DNA of 64,000 nt from Achromobacter sp. UMC71 (GTDB lineage: Bacteria > Pseudomonadota > Gammaproteobacteria > Burkholderiales > Burkholderiaceae_B): the NCBI RefSeq assembly GCF_014170305.1, contig NZ_LZZT01000034.1:1-64000 (forward strand). Direction: 5' to 3'. The position numbers and the translations under genes were made by a program. The notes beneath the pieces were generated by a model. It saw nothing but the letters and a program-made list of their open reading frames with translations. It did not search any database and was not told where the DNA came from. This document shows, in pieces, positions 4,478-33,072 of this stretch (its first letter is position 1; the number at the start of each line of letters is the position of its first letter).

Positions 4478-4533
4478 CTTGTTGCTTGTGACTTGTTGCT
4501 TGTGACTTGTTGCTTGTGACTTGTTGCTTGTGG
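4478..4533 (+). repeat. Tandem repeat, 14 bp x 4
   Basis: Four back-to-back copies of CTTGTTGCTTGTGA; the last ends in G instead of A, and a partial unit follows. It lies between the apaH stop and repeat element A. One strand is G/T-only apart from C and the final A. The period is not a multiple of three and no gene covers it. It may be a slippage-prone spacer; I see no CRISPR-like spacers. Confidence 0.95.
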
Positions 4534-4563
4534 CTTGTGGCGTTTGGGCTTCGTAGGTCGCCC

Positions 4564-4720
4564 GTCGCGGGGGTGGCTTGCGGAGTGGGCGCCCACGATT
4601 GCGGTCCGGCGCGCGGGCGCCGGACTTCCCCTTCGTCATCTTCGTTGTCGCCTCCGGCGCCTGCCTTCAGATTCCCTCGGGCGCATCGAGGTTGCCCACT
4701 CCGCAAGCCACCCCCGCGAC
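4564..4720. repeat. Left hairpin module of element A (27-bp perfect arms)
   Basis: Arms 4564-4590 and 4694-4720 are perfect reverse complements (27/27) around a 103-base loop. Beyond them, CGTAG (4552-4556) pairs with CTACG (4724-4728) after a short bulge. The loop contains a second hairpin, GTCCGGCGC (4604-4612) with GCGCCGGAC (4617-4625). In copy B the loop is nearly the same but the arms have a different sequence and are again perfectly paired. No T-run follows, so it is not a typical intrinsic terminator. Confidence 0.95.
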
Positions 4721-5027
4721 AGGCTACGGTTTGCTGTGCTTGTCGCGCTGCTGGAGCTGTGGTCAGGGAATGAAATCTGCAAGGCCGCCAAGCCGCGGCC
4801 GCGCGGGCGGCCACGTTTGGCATTCATGTTGCTGACTATGTTGGGGGTGCGCTTCGCGCTGGTGGCGATTCGTTTTCTATTGGGTCGCACGTCGAGGGGA
4901 GGGGCGGTGATGGGCGGCGCGACAGGCACTGGCTTGCGCATGTACACCCCCGCGCGCGCCGCCCATCCGGCGCTGCGCGGTAGCGTGGAACATCACGGTA
5001 GCCGCGCCGCTAGAGGGCCTGGGTCGG

Positions 5028-5349: not shown

Positions 5350-5505
5350 GCGTGGCGGTGTCGGGGTGGGGTGGGCGGGGCGTTAGATGCGCCCGAGGGA
5401 ATCCGAAGGGAGCCGAAGGCGGACGAGGATGACAACGGGGCAGTCCGGAGCGAAGGCTCCGGACCGCAATCGTAGCCCCGCCCTCACCCGCCTGCCCCGT
5501 CACGC
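5350..5505. repeat. Right hairpin module of element A (inverted relative of the left module)
   Basis: The segment 5385-5473 matches the reverse complement of the left-module loop (GATGCGCCCGAGGGAATCC ... CCGCAATCGT). Its inner hairpin is GTCCGGAGC (5443-5451) with GCTCCGGAC (5456-5464). Outer arms 5350-5382 and 5474-5505 pair imperfectly. The right arm equals that of copy B while the left arm has diverged, so this hairpin seems partly decayed. Confidence 0.88.
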
Positions 5506-30512: not shown

Positions 30513-31493
30513 TCAATGGCCCGTATGCAGGGCCGGGTTGAGCGTGCCCCAGGCCGCCGTGCGCACCAGTGTTTCGACCGCGCCGGTCTGCGAGTTACGG
30601 CGGAATAGCAGCCCATGCTGGCCGGCCAATTCGACGGCCTTGACCACGGCCCCTTCGGGCGTGAGCACGCGCGTGCCGGCAGTGACATAGCAACCCGCCT
30701 CGACGACGCAGTCATCGCCCAACGAGATGCCGATGCCCGAGTTGGCGCCGAGCAGGCAGCGCTTGCCGATGGCGACGACCTGTTTGCCGCCACCAGACAT
30801 GGTGCCCATGATGGACGCGCCGCCGCCCACGTCGGTGCCGTCATCGACGATGACCCCCGCGCTGATGCGGCCTTCGACCATGGAGGCCCCCAGGGTGCCG
30901 GCATTGAAGTTGCAGAAGCCTTCGTGCAGCACGGTGGTGCCCGCCGCCAGATGCGCACCCAACCGCACCCGCGCGGTATCGGCAATACGCACGCCGGCCG
31001 GCACGACGTAGTCGGTCATGCGCGGAATCTTGTCGACGCCCCGGATTTCCAGGACCTGGCCAGTCGCCCGCAATTGCCAACGCAAGGCCTCGACCTGATC
31101 GACAGCGCAAGGCCCGACCGAGGTCCAGGCCACATTGGCCAACACATTGAACAAGCCATCCAGGTTGGCGCCGTGCGGCCGGATGAGCCGATGGCTGAGC
31201 AGATGCAGGCGCAGATAGGCATCATGGGCATCAACCGGCGGGGCATCGAGCGAAGCGATGGCGGTGCGCACGGCAACGATATCGACTTTCCGACGCGTAT
31301 CGCGGCCAAGAGACGTCGGCACATGTTCGCCAAGGGCGGCGCGCGCTTCTTCAGGCGTCAGGTGGCGAGTGCCGCCGGCGGGGGAGTTGTCGGCCAGGGA
31401 AGGGCGCGGATACCACGTATCAAGAACGGTGCCGTCGGCGGCAATGGTGGCTAGGCCGTAGGCGATGGCGCTGGTTTGAGTGGCTTGGGACAT
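30513..31493 (-). CDS. dapD: Tetrahydrodipicolinate N-succinyltransferase, actinobacterial-type DapD
   Basis: Catalyses the succinylation step of lysine/diaminopimelate synthesis. 326 residues. The N-terminal [18 protein letters not shown], then [30 protein letters not shown] and [20 protein letters not shown] closely follow the mycobacterial/corynebacterial DapD pattern, not the ~273-residue proteobacterial form. The left-handed beta-helix repeats are in the second half. I chose ATG 31493 (MSQATQ); the frame stays open into repeat element B upstream, but those residues derive from the repeat. The ribosome site is weak. Confidence 0.88.
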
Positions 31494-31617
31494 GGTGCTT
31501 GCTGAGTGTTGTTGTGGTTTTTTTTGGGGTTTCTCTTGGGGGAATATTCTAGGCCAGGTTTGTTGGGGGGCGTGCTGGTGTTTGCGTTTTGCGGCTCGAG
31601 TTGTTCTTCGTAGGTCG

Positions 31618-31775
31618 CCCGTCGTGCAGGGCTTCGTGGCAGCGGGCGCCCACGATTGCGGTCCGGCGCGCGGGCGCCGGACTACCCCGTTGTCATCCTC
31701 GTCCGCCTTCGGCTCCCTACGGATTCCCTCGGGCGCATCGAGGTTGCCCGCTGCCACGAAGCCCTGCACGACGGG
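31618..31775. repeat. Left hairpin module of element B (30-bp perfect arms)
   Basis: Arms 31618-31647 and 31746-31775 are perfect reverse complements (30/30) around a 98-base loop that closely matches the loop in copy A. The arm sequence (CGTGCAGGGCTTCGTGGCAG) differs from copy A (CGGGGGTGGCTTGCGGAGTG). CGTAG (31609-31613) and CTACG (31776-31780) pair outside the arms. Confidence 0.95.
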
Positions 31776-32110
31776 CTACGCGTGTCTGGGTCCGTTGCGC
31801 TGCTAGACCTGTGGTCAGGGCATGAAATCTGCAGGGTCGCCAAGCCGTGGCCGCGCGGGCGGCCACGTTTGGCATTTGGGTTGCTGACTGTGGTGGGGGT
31901 GCGCTTCGCGCTGGTGGGGAGCGGTTTTCTAATGGTTGCTCTGTCAGGGGGGAGGGGCGGTGATGGGCGGCGCGGCAGGCACTGGCTTGCGCATGCAGAC
32001 CGTCTCGCGCGCCGCCCATCGGGCGCTGGAGACTTTGTTGGAATCTACGGCATCCGCGCCGCTAGAAGGCCGGTGCCAATCGGATGCTGCTTTATTGGTG
32101 ATCAAAACAT

Positions 32111-32198
32111 GGCAGGCACTCAAAGCGACAGGCACTAAGAGCACGACAGATACTCATAGCACGACCCGCACTCAAAGCACGACAGGCATTCAAAGCAC
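32111..32198. repeat. Tandem repeat in core of element B, 18 bp x about 5
   Basis: Units begin at 32111 (16 bp, partial), 32127, 32145, 32163 and 32181, of the type GACAGGCACTCAAAGCAC with several substitutions. It occupies the place of the unrelated 42-bp repeat in copy A. Confidence 0.92.
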
Positions 32199-32379
32199 AC
32201 ACGCTCACCGCAGGCGCGAGAGCGGCATCCGTTTACGCAAGACACCGCGTAAGCCTCGTAAGGCCGCCCGCGCGGCCGGCACGAGGCGGGCACCGCACCC
32301 TCCTCCAACCCCCTTTGATGGTGACTAGCATGCCAAGCACACTGACCGCCCCAGAGGCCGTAAGTAATGCACATCAAGA

Positions 32380-32543
32380 GCGCGTGGCGGGGCAGGCGGG
32401 TGAGGGCGGGGCGTGTAGATGCGCCCGGCGGAATCCGAAGGAACCGCCGAAGGCGGTGACGAGGATGAGCACGGGGCAGTCCGGAGCGAAGGCTCCGGAC
32501 CGCAATCGTAGCCCCGCCCTCACCCGCCTGCCCCGTCACGCGC
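32380..32543. repeat. Right hairpin module of element B
   Basis: Arms 32380-32412 and 32511-32543 pair at 32 of 33 positions (the exception is G opposite T). The 98-base loop is the inverted relative of the left-module loop and carries the inner hairpin GTCCGGAGC-GAAG-GCTCCGGAC. Confidence 0.94.
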
Positions 32544-32601
32544 GGCTTAAGAACGGCAACGCCCAAAAGAACCCAAAAAAGCCCAATAAGTTCGCCAGAA
32601 C

Positions 32602-33072
32602 TTAAACCCCACCCTCATATCCCTGCTGCCTCCAAGCCTCAAACACCGTCACCGCCACCGCATTAGAAAGATTCAAGCTCCGTTGCCCCGCCCGCATAGG
32701 CAACCGCAACCGCTGCTGCGGCGCAAACATCGCCTGATGTTCCTCGGACAACCCGGCGGTCTCCCGCCCGAACACAAACACATCCCCCGGCTCGAACCGG
32801 ATGTCCCCCACGCTGCGCTGCGCCTGCGTCGTCAATGCGTAGATATGCGAAGGCGCCGCCCCGGTATCGGCCAGCGCCTCTTGCAAGGTGTCGTGCACCC
32901 GCACCGGCTGCCACTCGTGATAATCCAACCCCGCCCGCCGCATGCGGGCATCGTCCAGCTCGAACCCCAGCGGGCGCACCAGATGCAGCTGGGCGCCCGT
33001 ATTGGCGCACAAACGGATGGCATTGCCCGTGTTGGGCGGAATCTCGGGGCAAACGAGGATGACGTGGAACAT
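32602..33072 (-). CDS. trmL: tRNA (cytidine(34)-2'-O)-methyltransferase
   Basis: SPOUT methyltransferase of 156 residues that methylates the wobble ribose of tRNA-Leu. The start [20 protein letters not shown], the FGRETAGLS segment and the C-terminal [20 protein letters not shown] knot motif are characteristic. The stop lies 48 bases beyond element B. It is transcribed from the comF side, 75 bases downstream of comF, and may share its transcript. Confidence 0.95.

Follow-up and report, generated by a model that had tools for sequence, protein, structure and literature searches.

At the two ends of a roughly 1-kb non-coding element, which occurs twice in the window, stand hairpins whose long arms vary from copy to copy and pair within each copy around a constant loop. 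The window is a stretch of 64,000 nucleotides of Achromobacter sp. UMC71, from contig C34 of its genome (G000; 6.34 Mb in 60 contigs). Judged from sequence, the fold of these hairpins is conserved and its pairs covary. By the mismatches left in the arms, it is the strand reading outward from the element, called here the bottom strand, that obeys the pairing rules, G.U included. The family is common in Achromobacter and patchy in related genera. We propose, tentatively and with a little less than even confidence, that this is a mobile non-coding element and that its ends would give rise to a structured 3'-end RNA, which may insulate transcription; for this RNA we infer both transcription and function.

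Features of the two element copies and of a neighbouring gene, in window coordinates
Feature	Position	Strand	Comment
Left end of copy B, GTTCTT	31603..31608	+	similar outer edge in other copies
Outer stem P1, left hairpin B, first arm	31617..31647	+	31 bp with 31746-31776
Conserved loop, left hairpin B	31648..31745	-	predicted bottom-strand junction with P2 and P3; covariation
Match of covariance model R1 on left hairpin B	31629-31762	-	
Outer stem P1, left hairpin B, second arm	31746..31776	+	
Small hairpin h2, C-rich leader of left unit B	31839..31873	-	marked pair U-A (bottom sense)
Matching small hairpin, leader of right unit B	32253..32287	+	read from sequence
Right hairpin B, first arm	32380..32412	+	33 bp with 32511-32543, one mismatch
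Conserved loop, right hairpin B	32413..32510	+ (bottom sense)	model match 32393-32532 (+); near likely misjoin
Right hairpin B, second arm	32511..32543	+	
Right end of copy B, AAGAAC	32549..32554	+	
Left hairpin, copy A	4560..4724	-	arms 4560-4590/4694-4724; single mismatch, beyond the 27 bp first described
Right hairpin, copy A	5362..5496	+	arms unmatched here, matched in C60: likely assembly seam
dapD-like gene (tetrahydrodipicolinate N-succinyltransferase type)	30513..31493	-	start faces copy B

Copy B, with the left hairpin at its left end, extends from GTTCTT (31603) to AAGAAC (32554); copy A is similar, with an unreliable right hairpin. Left and right hairpins have their loop in common and are mutually inverted. 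Paired elements in the loci examined (n = 55) measure 520-1440 bp, with a median of 855, and mostly 0.7-1.2 kb. In paired elements the top strands point inward (55 of 55 in Achromobacter, 5 of 5 in Bordetella) and the bottom strands read outward. From the centre outward, each unit consists of a C-rich leader with a small hairpin, followed by a large structured domain. In this domain the long outer stem, made of the variable arms, closes a junction from which a purine-rich arm, P2, and a hairpin, P3, branch off. The bottom strand is predicted to fold into a three-way junction, the inner stems of which covary too. Predicted folding energies of three window hairpins, taken on both strands, lie between -119 and -141 kcal/mol. 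In some copies (L010, L011, L016, L030, L031, L081, L088 and L118) a GGGGCCGCCTAGGC-like segment, roughly 14 nt long and optional, lies between P2 and P3. Directly left of copy A, at 4478-4547, lies a 14-bp tandem repeat, CTTGTTGCTTGTGA.

The first-pass annotation had described the arms of two left hairpins as perfectly paired, and so they are. In copy A, 4564-4590 and 4694-4720 are exact reverse complements (27 of 27), and in copy B, 31618-31647 pairs with 31746-31775 at 30 of 30 positions, one further outward pair extending the stem to 31. Gapless pairing over 30 bp is far beyond chance. The claim that the arms of A and B are unlike each other stands for these two copies, which agree in register at 18 of 31 positions, but arms are not unrelated in every copy: for 40 of 70 left arms, in six genomes, the same genome holds an arm within at most two differences. 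Over the 31-nt left arms, copies differ on average at 11.5 positions. The left arms of G007 are homogenised, with a mean distance of 2.4 among themselves and of 12.6-16.6 to the other five genomes examined; within those five the means are 8.3-12.9, distances being taken at a fixed offset and inflated by a few out-of-register arms of G040. The loop between the variable arms had been called constant, and the loops of A (103 nt) and B (98 nt) do align, with a score of 84.

The pattern extends to the family at large. Among 152 distinct core matches, copies less than 60 nt from a contig end being left out, 145 have arms that pair over 20 bp or more, with mismatches tolerated; the copies have no single fixed arm sequence, and their arms are not generally unpaired. 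The causes of the 7 short-arm exceptions could be read from the sequence: L012 and L087 are false core matches, L079 and L083 have apparent adapter sequence inside, L028 is a hybrid close to a contig end, L047 is one degenerate copy, and L007, the sole exception examined further, is the right hairpin of copy A in the window. The adapter-like sequence in L079 and L083, both from G031, resembles what we take to be a Nextera transposon adapter and is probably an artefact of the G031 assembly. Near another contig end, L013 looks hybrid, with unmatched arms. With duplicates and arms below 20 bp excluded, 123 arm pairs are left, 52 of them perfect, and mismatches occupy 111 of 3778 cells.

Covariation is visible in an alignment (A1) of 66 hairpins, taken from 72 representatives after dropping the right hairpin of L007, L028, L033, the first copy of L047, L079 and L083. 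There, 94.7% of cells pair. Doubly changed cells number 380, against 121 in shuffles, with none of 500 shuffles as high, and sliding the partner column leaves at most 143. The loop behaves likewise: columns 43-45 with 80-78 contain no broken pair, and both sides changed in 6, 1 and 25 sequences, respectively; column 38 with 84 has 13 doubly changed sequences and one broken. What the stem needs is apparently length and pairing, its letters being largely free, so that the fold rather than the letters appears to be preserved.

Hairpins at the same place in different genomes tell how the arms change. Grouping by 340 nt of outside flank gave 41 groups, comparisons inside one group not being independent of each other. 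In 89 comparisons, all between different genomes and with the more divergent hairpins included, 670 arm pairs are compensated and 127 otherwise changed, so that the arms do change together at a locus, as had been put forward for checking; 13 further comparisons have identical arms. A stricter count, which sets 40 comparisons aside for having over 10 left-arm differences, covers 55 with 10 or fewer; in these, both sides changed in 219 pairs (fully Watson-Crick in 210) and one side in 63. Both counts skip pairs whose arms sit in different register. In G012, the counterpart of copy B's left hairpin has 8 of the 31 pairs changed, every one with compensation. At 85-90% flank identity, 35 comparisons contain 293 compensated changes, or about 8 of some 31 pairs, which is faster than the flanks. 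Double transversions make up 493 of the 670 compensated changes, 279 of these being G-C to C-G flips. Neighbouring changes are clustered 3 times against 3.6 expected in the 85-90% bin, and 3 times against 0.7 in the 90-95% bin. Given the same-place changes and the arm distances within genomes, arms seem to change by compensation and by the spread of whole hairpins between copies. In G031, the loop of the copy B counterpart (L063/L069, contig C714, 26481-27669) holds an insert of about 1.2 kb, probably an IS.

Of the two origins that the first-pass annotation had offered for the paired arms, covariation gains support from the compensated changes at the same place, from the doubly changed cells and from the leftover mismatches, which follow G.U pairing on one strand. 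The other was the copying of one arm from its partner when the element moves. Rewriting of arms on movement finds no support in Bordetella: all 8 aligned loci of Bordetella genomosp. 4 agree in the stretch compared of the outer left arm, and among 33 Bordetella hairpins a single arm pair is found 8 times. Arm-to-arm copying may still be one source of new arms, since double transversions account for 493 of the 670 compensated changes.

Leftover mismatches also tell which strand folds. In the top frame, 62 are A.C or C.A, 34 T.C or C.T, 5 G.T or T.G, 5 G.A and 5 others. A top-frame A.C is a G.U wobble on the opposite, bottom strand. In the absence of strand-specific selection or mutation A.C and G.T are expected to be equal. 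The ratio is 62:5 (p ~1e-13), or 52:5 by distinct context (p ~6e-11), and it is found in each hairpin class: 29:2 for left-type, 18:3 for right-type and 15:0 for other hairpins. Because left and right hairpins are inverted in the element and yet share the bias, a regional strand bias is no explanation. Bordetella arms, several copies of which are close relatives, give 16:1 once the mismatches of a constant internal loop (G.A, C.A, T.T or T.C; 25 rows each) are removed by hand; before removal the counts were 25 C.A and 1 A.C. The marked pair of the small leader hairpin, read on the bottom strand, is U.G in 25 of 30 contexts, U-A in 3 (copy B has U-A) and C-G in 2. The mismatch asymmetry and this U.G therefore point to the outward-reading bottom strand as the one that folds, either as RNA or as single-stranded DNA. 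We infer that it acts as RNA, although tolerance of G.T in single-stranded DNA would yield an identical asymmetry. A mutation bias linked to transcription is a disfavoured source of the A.C excess: it predicts loss of C from the bottom strand, yet the leader is C-rich and T-poor, and the inverted hairpin types show the same bias, each in its own frame.

The gene context is also supported, if less firmly than fold, covariation, strand and spread. A home-made gene caller, with 800 kb of G012 and G040 as training data, assigned a context to 74 sites, besides 52 unclear and 5 at edges: 43 are convergent, 17 are paired elements between tandem genes, 13 are single bottom-sense hairpins between tandem genes, 1 is such a hairpin in top sense, and 0 are divergent. 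The background of 511 gene pairs has 77 convergent, 365 tandem and 69 divergent. Merging the 74 sites by flank homology leaves 21 places, of which 11 are purely convergent, 7 purely tandem, 3 mixed and 0 divergent. The convergent excess survives this merging (p ~1e-4), the divergent absence is not significant (p 0.09), and the 13:1 count in favour of the bottom sense comes from perhaps five places. As 3 of the 21 places mix convergent and tandem calls, calling errors are likely. An earlier and weaker gene model, now superseded, placed 2 single hairpins between divergent genes and took copy B to be convergent despite its facing the start of the dapD-like gene. The element lies upstream of that minus-strand gene, for which the left hairpin of copy B is therefore bottom-sense.

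Single hairpins that are convergent or in bottom-sense tandem stand, in 33 of 37 cases, 138-350 nt past the stop codon of the bottom-sense gene, an interval that contains the C-rich leader. Paired elements of Bordetella lie between convergent genes in 5 of 5 cases, 25-55 nt from both ends by script offsets, 23 of the 30 Bordetella sites being unclear. Leader composition is C 0.42 and G 0.25 over 168 related copies, and at other gene ends C 0.35-0.38 and G 0.32-0.36. It thus agrees with the C-rich, G-poor upstream RNA of Rho-dependent terminators; the agreement is weaker in Bordetella, where the C content of the leader is lower (C 0.34, G 0.26; 32 copies).

Position and composition suggest what such an element might do. 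Its bottom, outward strand would be transcribed and would work as RNA at transcript ends, and this 3'-end or insulator element would stop or trim transcripts leaving a gene before they reach the next one. Because a C-rich, G-poor leader precedes a very stable fold, Rho-dependent release is suggested: the leader would perhaps load Rho, the hairpin would make a stable transcript end, and a paired element would serve both directions. Its arms would be altered by compensated changes and also when whole hairpins are copied from one element copy to another. Some results speak against this reading. The prevalence of double transversions is unlike a stepwise path through G.U, and the asymmetry is weaker among one-sided changes at the same place, 24 A.C or C.A against 9 G.T or T.G, with the same copy counted several times. 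A bolder version of the proposal strikes us as doubtful: this might be a new class of mobile structured RNA, an outward 3'-end or insulator numbering dozens of copies per genome, whose stem is rewritten in pairs at a faster pace than its surroundings; self-cleavage or a protein partner of its own is conceivable for the RNA, as is renewal of the stem arm-to-arm. If the insulator reading is true, many Achromobacter and some Bordetella gene ends share one structured RNA spread by a mobile element, and the idea that mobile DNA spreads transcription insulators becomes testable. The copies would then be natural replicates of one fold with free stems, which would make the arm-matching rule directly measurable.

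The distribution of the family is uneven. An element match is present in 42 of 43 genomes of the genus Achromobacter, and in the window's own genome 40 scored candidates yield 58 BLAST matches, part of which are arm matches on the opposite strand. Under strict filters, the covariance model matched 34 of 200 family genomes, in 12 of 43 genera (16 candidates per genome scored), and 3 of 300 order genomes (10 candidates per genome scored), all three in the same family and none outside it. Named records matching by pattern are Achromobacter agilis, A. animicus and A. mucicolens and, in Bordetella, Bordetella genomosp. 2, 4 and 7, B. petrii and Bordetella sp. 02P26C-1. Over 3260 bp, locus L040 of G003, a genome placed in the genus of the window, has an identical match in a named A. 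animicus contig. Seven of the 9 genomes sharing the genus of G177 matched, and G141 (Bordetella genomosp. 4) has 70 model matches. A 301-base element query had no match in plasmid and phage records, nor had one exact element pattern in viral contigs.

Elements of about 890 bp in Bordetella genomosp. 4 are 90-94% identical at 8 aligned loci, with sharp ends, and by eye no target-site duplication is seen at these loci. Their terminal inverted repeats read GT(T/G)CTATTGG(T/A)CGTCG at both ends; those of copy B are GTTCTT...AAGAAC. No gene was placed, by a weak gene model, inside any listed Achromobacter element, and no transposase was found for the element. The IS256-type transposase between the G087 hairpins was rejected as its enzyme, having independent IS ends and being self-nested in one locus. 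That IS256-family element lies inside the related elements L150, L151 and L152 (G087), the L150 copy being nested in itself. In Bordetella petrii (L234, 1380-1730) a long inverted repeat, perhaps another inserted element, is nested in the element core.

An element that has spread, with hairpins at both ends, might use these as single-stranded DNA substrates for its movement, in the manner of attC, IS200/IS605 or REP, the fold being kept for a recombinase. This we consider rather unlikely. DNA tolerates G.T, and GTAG at the base of the left hairpin is a tag known from REPs (PMC3733652). This tag is seen in left hairpins, not in the right or Bordetella hairpins looked at. Y1 transposase genes (PF01797) are found in only 10 of 43 genus genomes, the window's own having one, against the 42 of 43 that carry the repeat; the same counts led us to reject its identity with a REP/BIME mobilised by RAYT. 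The ends of IS200/IS605 lie on one strand, whereas the two hairpins of the element are inverted. Finally, placement follows the flanking transcription, which a DNA substrate does not need.

A hairpin could also template its own repair, one arm being copied from the other by quasi-palindrome correction or template switching, and no selection on the fold would then be needed. The abundance of double transversions and the pace of the arms, which outruns that of their flanks, both agree with such copying, which we nevertheless hold to be unlikely. Leftover mismatches should then be strand-neutral, and they are strongly biased towards A.C. Loop stems covary as well, with no unpaired cell in columns 43-45. 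Copying of whole hairpins, to which the many near-identical left arms within genomes testify, also explains changes in blocks, and the clustering of changes is at chance in the 85-90% bin, though above it in the 90-95% bin.

A plain bidirectional intrinsic terminator repeat is quite improbable. It would have the right site, after gene ends and often between convergent genes, and a very stable hairpin, but no T run follows the stem on either strand of left hairpin B, and a terminator has no need for a conserved 100-nt loop. A terminator scan of 31400-32800 gave 0 sites; it admits loops of 3-8 nt only and is blind to the long hairpin.

As to the assembly, C34 agrees with contig C60 at four places, from ~5.4 to 32.5 kb, with one constant offset. 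The neighbours of C60 on both sides recur in relatives. The TrmL-like gene beside copy B in C34 adjoins a different neighbour in G006, G031, G012 and G011, and the arms of the right hairpin of copy A, unmatched in the C34 seam, are perfect in C60. C34 is probably misjoined at 5.4 and 32.5 kb, in the right hairpins (5362-5496 and 32393-32543); a true rearrangement instead is possible. The left hairpin described above lies inside the shared stretch and is found in both contigs. That the whole pattern is an assembly artefact, as the mutual repetition of C34 and C60 between the right hairpins and the hybrid look of some contig-end copies might suggest, is refuted by the same pattern in the single-contig genomes G007, G012 and G040, and misjoins give unpaired hybrids, not paired arms. 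Unpaired copies may even serve to flag assembly errors.

We file the element as a variant of mobile paired-hairpin repeats; its proposed structured RNA is apparently undescribed. Rfam gave no match at gathering score for the window and 8 loci, and a loose search only scores far below the cut-offs. Bacterial MITEs are short, non-coding, high-copy sequences with end repeats and no transposase of their own. The element resembles them in its terminal inverted repeats and lack of coding capacity; unlike them, it carries structured, covarying domains at its ends, and neither a target-site duplication nor an autonomous partner was found for it. Integron attC sites fold as a single strand, with paired variable sequence and a strand preference. 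In the element, by contrast, the loop is conserved and the stem variable.

REP/BIME sequences, as described in PMC3733652, share with the element palindromes, often in dimers, and complementary stem changes, and G-T pairs in REPs are taken there as a sign of RNA function; their GTAG tag has a counterpart at the left hairpins of the element. They measure 20-40 bp according to the same source, whereas the hairpin of the element has about 165 nt and a conserved structured loop. The Beta-proteobacterial repeat element (BRE), compared by description, is likewise repeated, GC-rich, mostly intergenic, present in Bordetella and thought to be mobile, and it has been linked to the sRNA bprJ; it differs in being of ~90 bp, sometimes in tandem, and also in Comamonadaceae (PMC3110155). 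In the limited scan of 300 order genomes given above, the model of the element had no match beyond its own family. Also comparable are the Bor-1 intergenic repeats, of which 196 copies of 117 nt are given for Bordetella bronchiseptica and 128 copies of 93 nt for B. pertussis in the extract of PMC2267715. Like the element, these are intergenic, high in copy number and predicted to be structured; the extract says nothing of paired elements, arm variability, strandedness or neighbouring genes. Set beside the element by description alone, Bor-1 may be an earlier partial sighting of it. The open-licence papers searched yielded no account of the element in Achromobacter.

The hairpin adjoins the TrmL-like methyltransferase gene in 5 of 30 loci (G000, G006, G031, G012 and G011). 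A search for the core gave nothing at the remaining 25, where short spacers, other hairpins or other palindromic repeats are seen by eye. In other species (L172, L181, L186) a different large palindromic repeat, starting with GTAGGATGGGT, fills the gap; L181 holds a long inverted repeat.
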